The notes under the pieces are model-generated. The model saw only the letters and a program-made list of their open reading frames with translations. It was not told where the DNA came from and did not search any database. Shown here piece by piece: positions 7,119 to 51,841 of a stretch of 64,000 nt of DNA. The stretch covers positions 310,001 through 374,000 of the forward strand of contig NZ_CANLMB010000001.1 in NCBI RefSeq assembly GCF_947492365.1, written 5' to 3'. The stretch comes from an uncultured Erythrobacter sp. (lineage in GTDB: Bacteria; Pseudomonadota; Alphaproteobacteria; Sphingomonadales; Sphingomonadaceae). Position numbers and translations under genes: made by a program. Position 1 is the stretch's first letter. Each line of letters opens with the position of its first letter.

Positions 7119-10019
7119 TCAACCGTCATCTTCCTCGGTTTCTTCCTCAGGCAACACCAGAAACTCGACTGCGGAATCGGGTTCAAGGTAGCGGCGAGCT
7201 GCGTCGAGCAGGTCTTCCGGCGTCACCGCGCGCAGCGTGTCAGGACCGGCAAACCACCGGTCGAGCCGTTCAGGCTGGCTTTGCGCCCGCGTGGCAAGGC
7301 TCATCCACCCGCCCAGCGATTTGAGCGAATTGTCATAGGCTTCGAGCATCGGCTGGCGCGCGCGATCGATAAGATCGGGATCGACCGGTTCGCTGCGCAA
7401 TTCCTCGATGAGATCGCGCATAACGCCGCGCACCGTCTCGACCTCTTCGGTCGCAACCGGAGCGGAAATAGTGAACACCCCGTAGCCGGGATAGGTCCGG
7501 CTCGATGAATTGCTCGCTTGCGTCGAATAGGCCTGGCCCAGATCTTCGCGCAGCCTTTCGGTCAGTTCGAGCCGGACGACTCGGCCCAGCAGCGCCAGCT
7601 CCATCGTTTCGGTGAAGTCACTGTCATCGCGGGTTGGCCAGACCATGCGCACCCATGCCTGATCCGCCTCGCCCGTGTGACGGATGATGCGTTCACCGCG
7701 TGTCTGGGTGAAGGAGCGGGTGCGAGCCTCTTCACGCGGCAGGAAATCGGCTTCGCGCATGTCTAGAGCGCCGAGCGTTGCGGCGACTGCGGAAATCGCG
7801 GTGTCTTCGTCAATGTCGCCCACCAGCGCCACTTCGATGGCTCCGCTTGCGAAGCGGTCCGCGATCACATCGCGCAATTGCCCATAGTCGAGCGCGAAGA
7901 AAGCATCCTTGCTTTGCAGGCTGAAACGCGGATCATTGTCTGACAGGATTGCTCCCTGCTGCGTGCCATAGGCGCTCGCGGGAGTTGAGCCCATCGACAT
8001 AAAGAAGTTCTCGATTCCCCGCCGGAACTGCTCGACCCCTTCGGGACGATAACCCGGATCGGTCAGGCCGGCGGTGATGAGCTGCAACTGCAAATTGAGA
8101 TCGCGCGGGGTCGTGCCTCCGGCAAAGCTGAACGCATCGGAAGTGTTCGAAACGCGCAGCGCGACACTGCGCCCGGCCATGATGCTCTGCAATTCGTCGA
8201 GGCTGTGCTGGCCTAGACCTCCCGCAGAAAGCGATCCAACCAGATAGGTATTGAGCGGGTTCTCACGCGTATTCAGGAGATTGCCGCCATCGACAAGCAC
8301 GCGGAAACTCACACGGTCTTCGCGAATATCCGTCTGCTTGAGTGTCAGCCGCACGCCGTTGGCAAAGGTGATGAGGCGCAGGCCAAGCCGCTCCTCGCGC
8401 GTGTCCGACACCACTTCGCCCGGCTCGCCGAAATCGGCGTATGCAAATTCGACTGCGCCGGTGTCTTGCGGCGGCGCAATCGGCAGCGCCATGGCTTCTG
8501 TGAAAGCGCTGCGCAAAGCTTCCTCTCCGCCTTCGGGAGCATTGCGGCCCTGAAAACGGATCAGCGGTGCGTTGAGCGGCAAGGCCTCTTCGCGCAGCAG
8601 AGCAAAGATCGACGCCGGCGTTATCTCGCCTGCATAGGATTCAAATTGTTCAAGCGTGTATTGCGGCGTCGTCGGCACGACATCATCCGATGCAAGCCGC
8701 AGCGCGCTACCGGCAAACGCCGTATTGCTGCGGGTTTCGGCCCCCGAGACGCGGTTCTCAAGCGCTGTGCGGGTGTTGGCGAGCTGTTCGTCCAATTCGG
8801 CCTGTGTGAAGCCATAGGTCAGCGCCTGGTTGACCTCGCGCACTGCGGCGAGCAGCCCTTTGCGCCATTCGCCGTCTTCGCTGGCAATCGTGATCGAGTT
8901 GGTGCTCGCGTCCTCGAAAATGTCACCTCTGCCATATCTAGCCTGACGGAAAGGCGCATCTTCTGCGCGGGCAAGCCGGGTGAGGCGGCGCGAGATGATG
9001 CTGTAGGCAATCGAGCGCTCCAGGTTGCGGCGGCGATTGGCGCTACTGTCTGGACGGTCGGTCCATGGGCCGAGCACGGTGATCGTTACACTCTCCGACA
9101 AAGCCGGGTCGGTGTAGATGTCGGTCAGCCCGCTGCGAGTGATGTCGACCGGGCCGGTTGCAGGCTCGGCAGGGGCGTGAGCGGCCTGCCAGTCAGTGAA
9201 CCGCTCACGCAAGGCCGCCTCCATCACCTCGACCGGAAAGTCGCCGACGATCACCAGCACGGTGTTGGAAGGGGTGTAGGTCCGCTCGTAAAGCGCTCGC
9301 AATTGGGCAGCCGAGGCGTTTTCGAGCGCTTCGAGCGTGCCGATCGGCAGGCGATCAACGTATCGCGCGCCCGGAGTCGTGAACGCGAAACCGTCCTCGC
9401 GCGCGGCCTGCGCAAAATTGCGGCGGTCGCGCCGTTCGGCCAGCACCACACCGCGCTCGCGCTCGACTGCATCTTCGGCAATGGTCAACTCGCTGGCGGT
9501 TTCGCGCATCAGCATCAGCGCGGTATCGAGCAATTCCTCTTCATTGCGCGGCAAGTTGAGCATGTAGGTGATTGTTTCAAAGCCGGTTGAGGCATTGGTG
9601 TCCGCGCCAAAGGCCAGCCCTTCGCGCTCGAGCAGTTTGACCATTTCGCCTTCGGGAATGTTGGTCGATCCGTTGAAGGCCATATGTTCGAGGAAGTGCG
9701 ACAATCCGCGCTCTTCTTCCGTCTCGGCAAGCGATCCCGAATGGATCCGCATCCGCACCAGAGCAGTTCCTTCGGGGGTGGCATTCTGGCGCAGGATGTA
9801 GCGCATTCCGTTGTCGAGCTGGCCAAATGTATAATCCGGATCAACGGGCAGATCGCTTTGCTCGAAATACCAGACCGGCTGTTCGGCTGGCGCGGCCGCA
9901 ACCTCAACGACTTGATCGGGAGCGCCGCCAGCGTCGAGCGTCGCACAGGATGCAAGGCACGAAATGGCGAAGAGAAGACCGGCGGTCAGCCGCATTTTCG
10001 GGAAATCCATAACCATCAT
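7119..10019 (-). CDS. M16-family zinc metallopeptidase, predicted lipoprotein
   Basis: 966 residues. The N-terminus is a lipoprotein signal: a hydrophobic stretch ending LASC near residue 25, so it is probably lipid-anchored in the periplasm or outer membrane. The first M16 domain has the inverted zinc motif HFLEH (in LSHFLEHMAFNGSTN) with the downstream glutamate region ERERGVVLAE. The later M16 repeats (about 550-900) lack HxxEH, as is usual for the inactive half. The family degrades peptides, and periplasmic members have been linked to peptide turnover. It lies between the caspase-like gene and purS on the same strand. No specific substrate can be inferred. Confidence 0.93.
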   Translation of the reverse strand: MMVMDFPKMRLTAGLLFAISCLASCATLDAGGAPDQVVEVAAAPAEQPVWYFEQSDLPVDPDYTFGQLDNGMRYILRQNATPEGTALVRMRIHSGSLAETEEERGLSHFLEHMAFNGSTNIPEGEMVKLLEREGLAFGADTNASTGFETITYMLNLPRNEEELLDTALMLMRETASELTIAEDAVERERGVVLAERRDRRNFAQAAREDGFAFTTPGARYVDRLPIGTLEALENASAAQLRALYERTYTPSNTVLVIVGDFPVEVMEAALRERFTDWQAAHAPAEPATGPVDITRSGLTDIYTDPALSESVTITVLGPWTDRPDSSANRRRNLERSIAYSIISRRLTRLARAEDAPFRQARYGRGDIFEDASTNSITIASEDGEWRKGLLAAVREVNQALTYGFTQAELDEQLANTRTALENRVSGAETRSNTAFAGSALRLASDDVVPTTPQYTLEQFESYAGEITPASIFALLREEALPLNAPLIRFQGRNAPEGGEEALRSAFTEAMALPIAPPQDTGAVEFAYADFGEPGEVVSDTREERLGLRLITFANGVRLTLKQTDIREDRVSFRVLVDGGNLLNTRENPLNTYLVGSLSAGGLGQHSLDELQSIMAGRSVALRVSNTSDAFSFAGGTTPRDLNLQLQLITAGLTDPGYRPEGVEQFRRGIENFFMSMGSTPASAYGTQQGAILSDNDPRFSLQSKDAFFALDYGQLRDVIADRFASGAIEVALVGDIDEDTAISAVAATLGALDMREADFLPREEARTRSFTQTRGERIIRHTGEADQAWVRMVWPTRDDSDFTETMELALLGRVVRLELTERLREDLGQAYSTQASNSSSRTYPGYGVFTISAPVATEEVETVRGVMRDLIEELRSEPVDPDLIDRARQPMLEAYDNSLKSLGGWMSLATRAQSQPERLDRWFAGPDTLRAVTPEDLLDAARRYLEPDSAVEFLVLPEEETEEDDG

Positions 10020-48232: not shown

Positions 48233-48618
48233 GCCATCAGGATATTCATGATCGCCGTTGCAATCGGGCGGCCGCGATCATCCTGCCACGCCTCGACCGT
48301 GATATTGGCATTTCGCCGTCCCAGCCGCGTGACCCGGCCTTTGGCAAAGCTCGGGCGTGACTTGCCGGCGGAGAGATATTGCACCGTGATATTGATCGGC
48401 TTGAACTGGGCTTCGCGGCCTTCCTCGATCAGCCGGGCGCGTAAAGCGGCATAGCCTGCATTTTCGAGCAATCCGGCAGTGGCTCCGCCGTGATAGTGCT
48501 GCGGACGCCCTTCGACATTGGAGCCGAATTCGACTGTCAGGATCGGAGTTCCTTCGTCGATTTCGTGAACTGTGATGCCAAGCGCACGAGCATAGGCGGG
48601 GAGTTCAAATTCACTCAT
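48229..48618 (-). CDS. PaaI-like hotdog thioesterase
   Basis: 129 residues from the ATG at 48616-48618. A single hotdog domain: GRPQHYHGGATAGLLENAGY carries the usual H-G-G near the active-site helix, and PINITVQYLSAGKSRPSFAKG plus NANITVEAWQDD form the sheet. It would hydrolyse a small acyl- or aryl-acyl-CoA. It overlaps the next hotdog gene by eight bases, so two different thioesterase-fold proteins are made from one message and may form a mixed oligomer, which is inference. Its stop overlaps the convergent PBP stop. Confidence 0.88.
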   Translation of the reverse strand: MSEFELPAYARALGITVHEIDEGTPILTVEFGSNVEGRPQHYHGGATAGLLENAGYAALRARLIEEGREAQFKPINITVQYLSAGKSRPSFAKGRVTRLGRRNANITVEAWQDDRGRPIATAIMNILMA

Positions 48619-49120
48619 CGCCCGTTCCCGCTTCGCTTGCTTCGACCACCGATGGCACTTTGCCCTGACGCGGGTCAAAGTTGATCGTCATAAAGACCCC
48701 TGCAACATGCGCCACCGGATCATCGATGTCGCCATCATGGGCGATCCCCCGAACAAAGGCAGCAGATCGCGTGGTGCGATAGCATTCGACGCGGCCTCGC
48801 ACTGCACTGCGTTCGCGTGCGGGGCGCTGGTAGTCGACTCTCAGATCGAGCGTTGCGATCGGGGCAAAGCTGCGGCGCGTCTGCCAGATCGACATTCCGC
48901 TTGCCATGTCCATCAGGCTGACAATCGGGCCTGAGGCAAGCACGGCCCGGTCGGATTCGCCCAGCAGATCCTCCCGCCATGGCAATTCCAACTCGACCCA
49001 ATTTTCGCCTTGGTCGAGAAATTTCAATCCCAGCCAGCCCGTATGCCCGCCGCGGAAAAAGAACTTGCTCGCCTCGCGTGCATCAAAATGCGGCGGTTCT
49101 GTAGGGGTGGTTTTGCTCAT
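48611..49120 (-). CDS. Second hotdog-fold thioesterase
   Basis: 169 residues from the ATG at 49118-49120; an in-frame ATG 27 bases earlier is possible. The hotdog domain has ASGPIVSLMDMASGMSIWQTR around the active-site helix, with aspartate in the helix, and IATLDLRVDYQRPARERSAV in the sheet. It fits PaaI/YbgC-like acyl-CoA thioesterases. It overlaps the downstream hotdog gene, and diverges from the small peptide gene at 49251, with about 130 bases between the starts. Confidence 0.87.
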   Translation of the reverse strand: MSKTTPTEPPHFDAREASKFFFRGGHTGWLGLKFLDQGENWVELELPWREDLLGESDRAVLASGPIVSLMDMASGMSIWQTRRSFAPIATLDLRVDYQRPARERSAVRGRVECYRTTRSAAFVRGIAHDGDIDDPVAHVAGVFMTINFDPRQGKVPSVVEASEAGTGDE

Positions 49121-49234
49121 CGTCAGTAAGTTTGGAGCGAGGGGCATTTCATTACAATCTCTTAATTTCTTGGCGGGCCATTTCTCGCCCAAGTTCCCTC
49201 TCAGCGCCGCAGCAGGATTGGACGGCGCGATAAC

Positions 49235-49240
49235 AGGAGG
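49235..49240 (+). promoter_or_regulatory. Strong ribosome-binding site of the small peptide gene
   Basis: AGGAGG stands ten bases before the ATG at 49251. It is one of the best Shine-Dalgarno matches in the window and supports the short peptide gene as real. Confidence 0.85.
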
Positions 49241-49250
49241 GCACAAAATC

Positions 49251-49421
49251 ATGCCAAAAATCGAACTATCGAGCATTCCAGGATTGGAAACGGCGCAGGC
49301 GCTGTTTGGCGCTGTGAGCGAACGGGTCCAGGCGGCGACCTATGACGATTCAATCGTCGCGGTCATGGTCTATATCTATGACACCTCGCCTCCGCCCCCG
49401 CCTCCGCCGGGCATCTTTTAA
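49251..49421 (+). CDS. 56-residue peptide with polyproline C-terminus, candidate RiPP precursor
   Basis: I do not recognise this gene. It encodes 56 residues, starting at an ATG with AGGAGG ten bases upstream. Residues 1-30 look like a leader: an amphipathic helical stretch (PGLETAQALFGAVSERVQ). Residues 31-49 are YDDSIVAVMVYIYDTSP..., and the end is seven prolines followed by GIF. The codons for the proline run (CCT CCG CCC CCG CCT CCG CCG) are mixed, so it is not a simple DNA slippage tract. Two genes of unknown function follow in the same direction. The leader/core form plus the neighbours suggest a modified peptide, but no transporter or protease is present. Alternatives are a small structural or signalling peptide. 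Confidence 0.7.
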   Translation: MPKIELSSIPGLETAQALFGAVSERVQAATYDDSIVAVMVYIYDTSPPPPPPPGIF

Positions 49422-49461
49422 GGGATAGCGGCTGATGCTTTTAAGGGATAGCGGCTGATGC
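49416..49461 (+). repeat. Perfect 23-bp tandem duplication at a gene junction
   Basis: The 23-base word TTTTAAGGGATAGCGGCTGA plus TGC occurs twice head-to-tail at 49416-49438 and 49439-49461. The first copy includes the peptide's TAA stop (49419-49421). Each copy carries AAGGGA and an ATG. The ATG of copy 1 opens a 7-codon ORF (49435-49458, MLLRDSG) that ends TGA, sharing its last base with the ATG of the next gene. Confidence 0.95.
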
Positions 49462-50417
49462 ATGTGCATCCGGCTGTGGCGGCGCTGCGACTGGACCCCG
49501 GTTCGCAGCGCCGCTCCCGCGCGCGGATGGAGGCGGCCAAGTGCGACTGGCTTGCTTCCGAGAGCGAGGTGGCTGCGGCGTTGAGCGCTTATGATGGGGG
49601 CGGGGCGCTAGTCGGCTATCCGGCTCTGGCGGTGCTGATGGGAGAGGTGGATGCAGCGCGCGAATTCGTTGACGGATTTGTCCGCCGTTTCATTGCCGCA
49701 CAGCGCGAGGCGACGCTTGGCGAAGTGCCTTTGCGCCACAGTTCGAGCGCCGGATTTGCGCGGCTGCAACTGATGCAAAGCGGCACAGCGGTGCTGTCGC
49801 TTTGCGTTTACGAGCCAGTGGCAGAACCCAAAGCGGCGCAAACCGCACGTTTTGTCGATTGCGAACTTCAAGAGATGGTCATCGCTGGGTCAGGGCGTGG
49901 GCGGGTTCATCGCCTCGAACTTGGCGATAAAGCGCCAGCCAGGATTTCAACCTTTGAGCGGCAATGGCGGGCAGGCGATCACATAGTCCAGCAGCCGCTT
50001 AACGAGGCTCGCGAATTTGTGGATGTCGGCCAAAGCCTGCTGGTCCTGCAACTCAGCCGCACGCCAAAGAGCCCAAGGCCTTCGCGCGAATACCGGCTCG
50101 ATAACGGCGCGCTGATGCAGCAGATTAGCGGCGATAAACGTGCCAGCGAGCAGTTGATGGCGCTGAGCGTTCTGGGTGCGCTCGAACATTGCGAGGCGCT
50201 GGGTGAAATGGACAGCTTCGCCCGCGACCCGGCCAATGATCGCGATGCTAGGTGGGAGGCCTTGCGCCAAACGCTTGCGCTGGACACCGGACGGGGGATG
50301 GAACTGCTTGCCAGCTTCGGCCCCGGTGATCCATTGGCGCACGCCGCAGCGGAATTGCGGGCGCAGCTGATCGCCAGCCATCCCGCGCTTCAAGACATTG
50401 TTCCGGAGAACCAGTGA
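49458..50417 (+). CDS. Unrecognised 319-residue protein, putative partner of the small peptide
   Basis: I do not recognise a family. 319 residues with no signal peptide or membrane helix. The N-terminal 80 residues are helical, 100-215 are beta-rich (GTAVLSLCVYEP, RGRVHRLELGD, GQSLLVLQLS), and 225-305 are helical in a HEAT-like way (DRDARWEALRQTLALDTGRGM). The order helical/beta/helical parallels the next protein, but where that one has PHDHN this one reads DCELQ, without histidines. It could be a non-catalytic or substrate-binding paralogue; that is inference. The stop overlaps the next start (TGATG). The 23-bp duplication lies over its initiation region. Confidence 0.75.
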   Translation: MHVHPAVAALRLDPGSQRRSRARMEAAKCDWLASESEVAAALSAYDGGGALVGYPALAVLMGEVDAAREFVDGFVRRFIAAQREATLGEVPLRHSSSAGFARLQLMQSGTAVLSLCVYEPVAEPKAAQTARFVDCELQEMVIAGSGRGRVHRLELGDKAPARISTFERQWRAGDHIVQQPLNEAREFVDVGQSLLVLQLSRTPKSPRPSREYRLDNGALMQQISGDKRASEQLMALSVLGALEHCEALGEMDSFARDPANDRDARWEALRQTLALDTGRGMELLASFGPGDPLAHAAAELRAQLIASHPALQDIVPENQ

Positions 50418-51316
50418 TGCCTCAGCTCATCGACAATCCGTGCGATCAAAACTGCTCACTTCCCGAAGCGATCGAGGCGTTGGCGCAGTTCGATTTCGAC
50501 CCTCGCGATGAGGCCACGACGCGCGAAGCCGCGGACTGGCTGCGCAAGCTCGCCAATAACCGTGAATTCCTCGGGCGAGTGTTGCTTGACCGGTTGGCTG
50601 GGCGGACCGAGACAATGGTTGAAAGCGGCTATGGCCCGCAAGCAATCGTGCTCAGCCCCTTGCGCGGCAATATGTTTCTGCGTGCCAATATCTGGCCTGC
50701 AGAACACGATCTGTGTTTCAGGAACAGCGGGGCGAAGACCTTCGTCTATGGCGTCCCCCACGATCACAATTTTGCATTCCTGACCTGCGGCTATCTCGGC
50801 CCGGGTTATGAAAGCGATTACTTCGAATATGATTACGAGGGCGTAACTGGCTATTCGGGAGAACTGGCTGATTTGCGCTTTGTCGAACGCAGCGCGCTGC
50901 ATGAAGGCAGGCTGATGCTCTACCGCGCGCACCGCGATGTGCATTCGCAATTGCCGCCCAAGGCTTTGTCGATCTCGCTCAACATTATGCATGTCGATCC
51001 GGCACAGGCGTGGTTCGACCAATATGGCTTTGAGCTGGAGAGCAAGCGGGTCACCCGCGTGCTGAGCCCCAATGCGAACGAAGTGTTCCTGCGCGCGGCG
51101 GTTGCTGGCGGATCGGACGAGGCGGAAGAATTCGCGCATTGGGTCGGCAATTCGCATCCTAGCGAGCGGCTGAGACTGGCGAGCTTCGAAGCGCGAGCGG
51201 GACGGCAGACGGATCAGACGGCGCGCGAAGACATCTGGCGCGAAGGCGAGCTTAGCGGAAGCCGTATGGTGGCAGCGGTTGCTCGCGAGAGGCGGGCGGC
51301 GTTAGCCAAACTCTAG
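50417..51316 (+). CDS. Unrecognised cupin-like 299-residue protein with HxH...H motif
   Basis: 299 residues from the ATG at 50417, sharing a base with the preceding stop; a GTG one codon earlier is less likely. A beta-rich core holds VPHDHNFAFLTCGYLGPGYE (H115, H117) and LMLYRAHRDVHSQLPPKALS (H172, H176), a layout reminiscent of the metal-binding motifs of cupins or Fe(II) oxygenases. The C-terminal 80 residues are helical and charged. I cannot name a family. If it is a metal enzyme, the peptide encoded two genes upstream is the obvious candidate substrate. A 35-codon gene overlaps its 3' end on the other strand. Confidence 0.8.
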   Translation: MPQLIDNPCDQNCSLPEAIEALAQFDFDPRDEATTREAADWLRKLANNREFLGRVLLDRLAGRTETMVESGYGPQAIVLSPLRGNMFLRANIWPAEHDLCFRNSGAKTFVYGVPHDHNFAFLTCGYLGPGYESDYFEYDYEGVTGYSGELADLRFVERSALHEGRLMLYRAHRDVHSQLPPKALSISLNIMHVDPAQAWFDQYGFELESKRVTRVLSPNANEVFLRAAVAGGSDEAEEFAHWVGNSHPSERLRLASFEARAGRQTDQTAREDIWREGELSGSRMVAAVARERRAALAKL

Positions 51317-51409
51317 ATAAAGAATTGTGCCAGCTACAATAACGACCAGAATCACAAGGCATCCGAGTTGAGCCTTGCGTGGTAGCAATTCGAAGAAGTC
51401 GAACTCCAT
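51302..51409 (-). CDS. 35-residue single-span membrane peptide
   Basis: The reverse strand encodes MEFDFFELLPRKAQLG, then a hydrophobic span CLVILVVIVAGTILYL, then EFG and a TAA stop. GGAG stands nine bases before the ATG (51407-51409). The layout (short acidic/aromatic N-terminus, KxxxG, one helix of about 17-18 residues) is that of bacterial small membrane proteins. It follows ruvX by 12 bases on the same strand and is probably the last gene of the pyrE-...-ruvX run. Its end overlaps the end of the cupin-like gene by 15 bases. Function unknown. Confidence 0.6.
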   Translation of the reverse strand: MEFDFFELLPRKAQLGCLVILVVIVAGTILYLEFG

Positions 51410-51421
51410 CGCTTTGGTCTC

Positions 51422-51841
51422 CTAGATCACTCCGCCCGCCAGCCGGTCAACCGCACCTTGCAGGATGACGGCTGCAGCGTGGCTGTCGATGCTCGTCGCG
51501 CGTTTGGCACGGCTCATATCCTGCCCGATCATCGCCGCCTCGGCGCTCTGGGTGGACCAGCGTTCGTCCCACAGCAGGAGGGGCAGGCCGAAAGCTTTGT
51601 CAGCATTGCGGGCAAAGGCGCGGCTGGCCTGCGCGCGCGGCCCCTCGGAGCCGTCCATGTTGCGCGGAAGGCCGAGGACGAGGCCCTTGACCTCGCGGGC
51701 TGCAATCAACTCTTTGAGCGTGTCCCTGTCCCGCCCCCATTTGCCGCGCTGGATCGTCTTGCCATTGGTGGCAAAGCGCCAGCCCGCATCGCAAATCGCG
51801 GTGCCAATAGTCTTGGTGCCAAGGTCCAGCCCAAGAAGCAC
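51422..51841 (-). CDS. ruvX: Putative pre-16S rRNA nuclease / Holliday junction resolvase homologue (YqgF)
   Basis: LLGLDLGTKTIGTAICDAGW, VKGLVLGLPRNMDGSEGPR and LLLWDERWSTQSAE are YqgF/RuvX signatures, with active-site acids in GLDLG and WDERW. The family processes the 5' end of 16S rRNA. The GTG start at 51841 gives 139 residues. In frame upstream is ITEFAPDFAEALPDGG, which looks like the normal N-terminus of sphingomonad homologues, reaching a CTG at 51892 that overlaps the DUF3089 stop as CTGA. The true start may therefore be CTG (156 residues). The gene is in a long same-strand run. Confidence 0.92.
   Translation of the reverse strand: MLLGLDLGTKTIGTAICDAGWRFATNGKTIQRGKWGRDRDTLKELIAAREVKGLVLGLPRNMDGSEGPRAQASRAFARNADKAFGLPLLLWDERWSTQSAEAAMIGQDMSRAKRATSIDSHAAAVILQGAVDRLAGGVI

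Follow-up and report, generated by a model that had tools for sequence, protein, structure and literature searches.

The window analysed here is a 64,000-nucleotide stretch from the genome of an uncultured Erythrobacter sp. (assembly GCF_947492365.1, contig NZ_CANLMB010000001.1, positions 310,001 to 374,000, forward strand), and it carries a candidate cassette for a ribosomally synthesised and post-translationally modified peptide (RiPP), made up of a short gene for a 56-residue peptide and two larger genes, referred to below as g2 and g3 (Table 1). The host genome measures 3.16 Mb and, judged by g3, its nearest named relatives are Erythrobacter. The first-pass annotation had correctly read the AGGAGG-preceded peptide gene, whose product ends in YDDSIVAVMVYIYDTS followed by seven prolines and GIF, as well as the extent of g3 and its H115-x-H117, H172 and H176. 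It had also described both larger genes as having overlapping starts, which is accurate for g2 and g3, where stop and start share one base (TGATG), but not for g2, which begins 36 nt past the peptide stop.

Table 1. Features of the peptide–g2–g3 cassette, in window positions.
Feature	Position	Strand	Basis or remark
Ribosome-binding site (AGGAGG) of the peptide gene	49235..49240	+	Ten bases 5' of the ATG, direct sequence reading
Gene for 56-aa precursor-like peptide	49251..49421	+	56 codons, coordinates including stop
Leader-like part, residues 1-22 (MPKIELSSIPGLETAQALFGAV)	49251..49316	+	pN/pS, conservation of aligned residues
Core-like part, residues 31-44 (YDDSIVAVMVYIYD)	49341..49382	+	pN/pS, hydrophobic C-terminal stretch
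Variable peptide tail (TSPPPPPPPGIF)	49383..49418	+	High pN/pS, not conserved
23-bp perfect tandem duplication, peptide end to g2 start region	49415..49461	+	Absent from 8 relatives examined
g2, 319 aa, degenerate thiol-dioxygenase/cupin fold with C-terminal HEAT-like helices (predicted)	49458..50417	+	
g3, 299 aa, presumed metalloenzyme, predicted thiol-dioxygenase fold with C-terminal helical domain	50417..51316	+	
H115-D116-H117, of which H115 and H117 are predicted metal ligands	50759..50767	+	Invariance and alignment to CDO_I-type HDH
H176, predicted third metal ligand	50942..50944	+	Invariance and alignment to CDO_I-type third His
S187-L-N189-I-M191, at the position of Ser-x-His-x-Tyr	50975..50989	+	Alignment with CDO_I-type proteins

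Of 199 genomes taken from the window's family, 74 had a g3 homologue (single-sequence search), as had 97 of 296 from its order (profile search). In the samples from the class and the phylum such genomes numbered 5 of 385, four of these from the window's own family, and 15 of 398, 13 of these again from that family. A pattern scan covering one genome per species returned 421 relatives of g3, and the best 80, mostly Erythrobacteraceae by name, were kept. Gene neighbourhoods were compared across 77 regions of the window's family, all located via g3, comprising 76 places with wider flanks (L031–L106) and the window. In 75 of these g2 adjoins g3, once as a fragment, the exceptions being a broken locus (L103) and L105, which is the other contig end of L106. 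The window peptide alone retrieved a peptide in 47 of the 77 regions (E up to 1e-3), and a profile built from these 47 added 14 regions at E < 1e-3 and 19 at E < 0.01. Each of the 14 added peptides lies within about 110 nt upstream of g2, except in L103, where g2 is missing, and among the listed profile matches up to E = 1 in the 77 regions a single one was off-site (E = 0.44). With weaker candidates accepted by place and pattern, a peptide could be assigned in 72 regions, upstream of g2 in 71; the candidates of L099, L101 and L102 were chosen by eye. In one region (L075, genome G162) g2 is truncated, g3 is interrupted by a stop and the peptide lies some 40 kb away. When the 80 nearest loci with a species or genus name were taken together with the window, peptide and g2 were both found in 80 of 81, the exception starting inside g3 at a contig end.

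The same association was seen genome by genome. Across the 199 family genomes, the peptide profile matched 71 of the 74 that carry g3 (the others being G057, G076 and G155) versus 1 of the 125 that do not; because the profile was built largely from the same genomes, the informative part of this comparison is the 1 of 125. The first-pass annotation had proposed such a co-occurrence search and had named homologues of g2 and g3 with no conserved peptide beside them as the outcome that would count against a cassette, an outcome which failed to appear. The trio is a real cassette, widely conserved in many sphingomonads. The sole g3-negative genome with a peptide (G018, 85% complete) has no match to g2 or g3 in the 18 kb around it (L216, G018:C22:8000-26000); here, at about 8265-8735, a peptide with a decayed-looking leader and an intact-looking core sits between thioesterase-like and RuvX-like genes.

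We then considered how selection acts along the peptide, using 19 close sequences and the uncorrected Nei–Gojobori ratio of nonsynonymous to synonymous differences (pN/pS). The pooled ratio of 0.36 resolved into 0.275 for the leader, 0.678 for the linker, 0.223 for the core and 0.574 for the tail: leader and core are under purifying selection, and linker and tail are relaxed. In 80 aligned sequences, the window's included, the leader follows the pattern M-n-L-P-K-I-D-L-s-s-L-P-g-L-d-t-x-x-G-l-F-G-S, and a variable linker leads to D-D-R-I-V-x-I-M-V-Y-V-Y-D/E and then to a variable tail. Gly20 is found in all 80 and Pro10, Leu12 and Met39 in 78 each (window numbering), while the acid (D or E) is present in 79 and the tyrosine preceding it in 76; Pro10 and Gly20 also reach at least 90% in 69 peptides. 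By its sequence, the gene product looks like a short precursor, with one leader-like and one core-like block. Only a few relatives retain the long proline tail, and this lack of conservation makes modification of proline, one of the targets first suggested, unlikely; it was rejected. Tyr and Asp, suggested alongside it, are well conserved in near relatives only. In distant members the leader remains recognisable for a while, but the core is another hydrophobic stretch, often rich in Val and Ile and with no Tyr or Asp; the distant candidate precursors mainly share a hydrophobic C-terminal stretch.

In 69 of the 72 assigned peptides, the C-terminal half contains a 9-residue stretch with seven or more hydrophobic positions, a level also reached by 34.5% of within-peptide shuffles in a control set of 84 peptides. 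That set (81 of 84 hydrophobic) consists of the 72 assigned peptides and 12 candidates chosen by eye or by a hydrophobicity filter, and these 12 for that reason carry no weight on hydrophobicity. So strongly hydrophobic a C-terminal part is also what one might expect of a secreted or membrane-active bacteriocin or signal, for which g2 and g3 would mainly be immunity or regulatory proteins; no secretion signal was obvious by eye (no predictor was run). In the same way, the roughly equal conservation of leader and core would suit a peptide that is never modified and instead acts as a third subunit, stabilising or gating a g2/g3 oxygenase of some small molecule (e.g. a thiol, a persulfide or an aromatic compound). 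Both alternatives are weighed below against g3 and the genomic context.

In agreement with the earlier statement that the three genes belong to no recognised family, neither the peptide nor g2 nor g3 matched a Pfam, NCBIfam or PHROGs family beyond chance level, and the window's g3 gave no Pfam match up to E = 1. The second outcome that would have told against the first reading, both larger proteins belonging to well-known families of unrelated function, also did not occur. Alignment A1 was built from 54 of the 73 g3 sequences that were usable and A2 from 56 of 74 g2 sequences; a further alignment, A3, excludes L049, L084 and L093. In member-wise Pfam scans of A1 and A2 (E up to 0.1), only HEAT-type models were matched by more than three members, HEAT_2 by 39 of the 56 g2 and 5 of the 54 g3 proteins and HEAT by 14 g2 proteins. 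NCBIfam searches with the 54 g3 proteins and 69 peptides produced single-member matches only, a PDB sequence search yielded nothing credible for g3 or the peptide profile, and viral contigs searched with a single g3 sequence gave no match. No family of the RiPP recognition element, a winged-helix domain that binds leaders, appeared in the Pfam scans of the 54 g3 and 56 g2 members. A detectable element of this type is missing from many RiPP classes.

Predicted structures (predicted local distance difference test, pLDDT, about 95) place both g2 and g3 in the thiol-dioxygenase fold, each followed by C-terminal helices. Together with a g3–g2 profile comparison that is independent of the CDO_I proteins discussed next, these models sharpen the cupin-like setting first noticed in g3 and suggest that g2 is its degenerate paralogue, presumably a partner or scaffold. 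H115, H117, D174 and H176 are invariant in A1, and H172 nearly so. The three-histidine metal site of g3 was found by alignment with seven proteins retrieved by PF05995 (CDO_I), one of them below the cut-off; 11 of 14 PF05995 loci had given an open reading frame (ORF), and L242, L244, L247 and L248 were dropped as wrong frames. The predicted metal ligands are retained by g3 but have been lost from g2. When the g3 profile was compared with the seven-protein set, the result was E = 0.0018 at a probability of 15%, the g3 profile found no match against one CDO_I protein, and PF05995 was absent among the Pfam families matched by the 54 g3 members up to E = 0.1. Thiol dioxygenases carry a Ser-x-His-x-Tyr motif, which X-Asp-Leu replaces in ADO and PCO (PMC10966181). 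Because both this motif and the Pfam match failed, we did not place g3 in CDO_I. A gene for a putative modifying enzyme is linked to the peptide and conserved with it, the enzymatic nature of g3 being suggested by its fold and by the conservation of its histidines.

The best fold matches are enzymes acting on small thiols, which favours a peptide serving as an unmodified third subunit. A thiol could also be sought in the precursor itself, with g3 forming a Cys-sulfinate on it, the reaction that ADO and PCO, the N-terminal cysteine oxidases, carry out on their substrates; these two share the thiol-dioxygenase fold with g3, likewise lack the Ser-His-Tyr motif and act on peptides or proteins (PMC10966181). 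Yet Cys occurs in only 10 of the 72 precursors, and the 62 that have none include the window's. The active-site residues of g3 are nearly the same for precursors with and without Cys, and g3 carries neither Ser-x-His-x-Tyr nor the X-Asp-Leu of ADO and PCO described in the same source. With most precursors Cys-free and the active site nearly unchanged where Cys is present, we rejected Cys oxidation and regard it as very improbable. ADO and PCO require an N-terminal Cys.

Genomic context in more distant bacteria bears on the two other alternatives. Outside the order, 14 of 18 g3 copies (15 loci) adjoin a recognised g2, the others being those of L198, L235 and L237 and one of two in L231. A plasmid of Alteromonas stellipolaris (L197) carries two short ORFs that lack annotation just ahead of g2-g3; upstream of this group are HlyD and ABC ATPase genes, and downstream of it are genes for an ABC ATPase and an ABC-2 permease. 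A locus from another class of the phylum (L230, G1264:C1:341500-361400) has three g2-g3 pairs in 20 kb, neighboured by HlyD, two ABC ATPases, a MacB-type permease, an S49 peptidase and a Trans_reg_C/PD40 regulator; an ORF at its edge reads by eye as a phytanoyl-CoA-dioxygenase type. From their gene content, both look like export-equipped biosynthetic clusters. Thus the remark that no transporter or protease is adjacent applies to the immediate neighbours of the window cassette, where no leader protease or exporter was found directly alongside, but not to these two relatives. In L232 (G1285:C23:700000-718500), two different candidate precursors stand before one g2-g3 pair. In L198, from a plasmid of Vibrio sp. 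ED002, a shortened g3 homologue with H-x-H was seen (7186-8754), the ORF in g2's place is unmatched by the g2 profile, and a short ORF containing Cys and Gly lies downstream.

A peptide acting as third subunit draws support from the syntenic locus seen in many regions, unlike many secondary-metabolite clusters: one of two thioesterase families was found near the cassette in 44 of the 77 regions and RuvX in 34, as in the window. Against this stand the strong divergence of precursors outside the near group around a constant g3 active site, the presence of two candidate peptides (chosen by eye) per g2/g3 pair in L197 and L232, and the transporter genes that join the cluster in two relatives. Overall, we consider this explanation unlikely. 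The same transporter genes, and a winged-helix regulator-like gene directly after g3 in eight loci, would agree with a bacteriocin or signal, but g3 conserves a metal site that would be needless for immunity alone, and the window cassette has no directly adjoining exporter; we judge this account quite improbable.

Other features around the cassette were recorded alongside. The regulator-like gene, by eye OmpR-type with a degenerate or missing receiver, lies directly 3' of g3 in L077, L085, L086, L088, L093, L094, L095 and L098, and what reads by eye as a TIR-domain-like gene comes next in L085 and L086. Six further loci (L079, L080, L081, L087, L091 and L092) show, by eye, a conserved membrane-protein-like gene of about 160 aa directly 3' of g3. 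In the window itself, the flanking genes lie on the opposite strand: upstream are two thioesterases of the 4HBT type and downstream is RuvX (Pfam), and a gene reading by eye as signal peptidase I (lepB) is found on the other strand about 1.8 kb downstream. A mobile origin in this window was rejected, as many relatives have the same neighbours. The tandem duplication creates a decoy ATG with a short ORF. Rfam had no matches in 48500-51500, and promoter and terminator scans at the locus gave scores not above those of shuffled sequence.

Taken on sequence grounds, the trio shows two genetic features of a RiPP locus, a short precursor-like gene and a co-conserved gene for a putative modifying enzyme. 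We favour, at a probability of roughly 0.6, a RiPP-like cassette in which g2/g3 oxidises the hydrophobic core of the 56-aa precursor. Residues ~1-22 would be the leader by which the precursor is recognised, and beyond it would come a short linker, the hydrophobic core and the variable tail. The enzyme g3 would be a three-histidine oxygenase that has arisen from the thiol-dioxygenase fold and holds a single metal ion, probably Fe(II), and g2 would be a catalytically dead paralogue that binds or presents the precursor within a complex of g2 and g3, with the leader resting on g2 or on the helical domains. The iron of g3 would activate O2 and the core would become oxidised, most likely through hydroxylation or a related two-electron change on aliphatic or aromatic core residues and not on a thiol. 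The constancy of the g3 active site set against changing cores suggests, as a guess, that no single special residue is targeted and that the chemistry falls on aliphatic side chains or the backbone. A protease for the leader and an exporter would need to be encoded elsewhere in the host genome. What weighs against this proposal is that the transporter evidence comes from two loci, L197 and L230, the only two scanned for such neighbours.

Several known systems offer partial parallels. With CDO (PF05995) and the 3-mercaptopropionate and mercaptosuccinate dioxygenases, g3 shares a predicted cupin fold, a three-His site by alignment, HDH and the spacing of the third His; unlike them, it has S-x-N-x-M, a C-terminal helical domain of ~80 residues and no PF05995 match, and is constantly neighboured by a presumably dead paralogue and a peptide gene. 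The likeness to ADO and PCO is limited by the mostly Cys-free precursors and by a different replacing motif in g3. MNIO (DUF692) cassettes, such as those for bufferins and methanobactin, follow the plan proposed here, with a short precursor, a non-haem iron oxidative enzyme and a partner protein (PMC12452194). The enzyme and partner families are unrelated, however, and MNIO enzymes act mostly on Cys; neither the window's g2 and g3 (Pfam, NCBIfam) nor the members of A1 and A2 (Pfam) matched DUF692 (PF05114). A partial precedent for a cupin-fold enzyme with a RiPP-like precursor is PbsQ, the cupin-like, JmjC-related hydroxylase of biphenomycin-like RiPPs, which hydroxylates a precursor residue (PMC12257519); unlike it, g3 has a predicted fold of the three-His thiol-dioxygenase kind and is accompanied by a degenerate paralogue.

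Among the matches listed in the RiPP literature on cupins, thiol and cysteine dioxygenases, sphingomonads including Erythrobacter, and Alteromonas, a body that leaves out most subscription papers, no title or opening of an abstract named such a family, and this is probably a peptide-modification system of a kind not found described. Going further, at odds somewhat below even, the cassette may represent a new RiPP class, in which a three-His oxygenase of thiol-dioxygenase fold and its dead, leader-binding paralogue have moved from thiols to O2-dependent oxidation of an aliphatic or aromatic core, kept as a stable syntenic locus in much of the family and as an export-equipped cluster, in one case with three paralogous pairs, in other classes of the phylum. 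If true, RiPP chemistry would gain a family of thiol-dioxygenase-fold cupin oxygenases whose substrate mostly carries no thiol, raising the question of how a three-His metal site works when the Ser-His-Tyr network has given way to other residues. The locus is present in 74 of 199 family genomes, often in the same place, and the product of the cassette therefore probably has a steady role in these bacteria.
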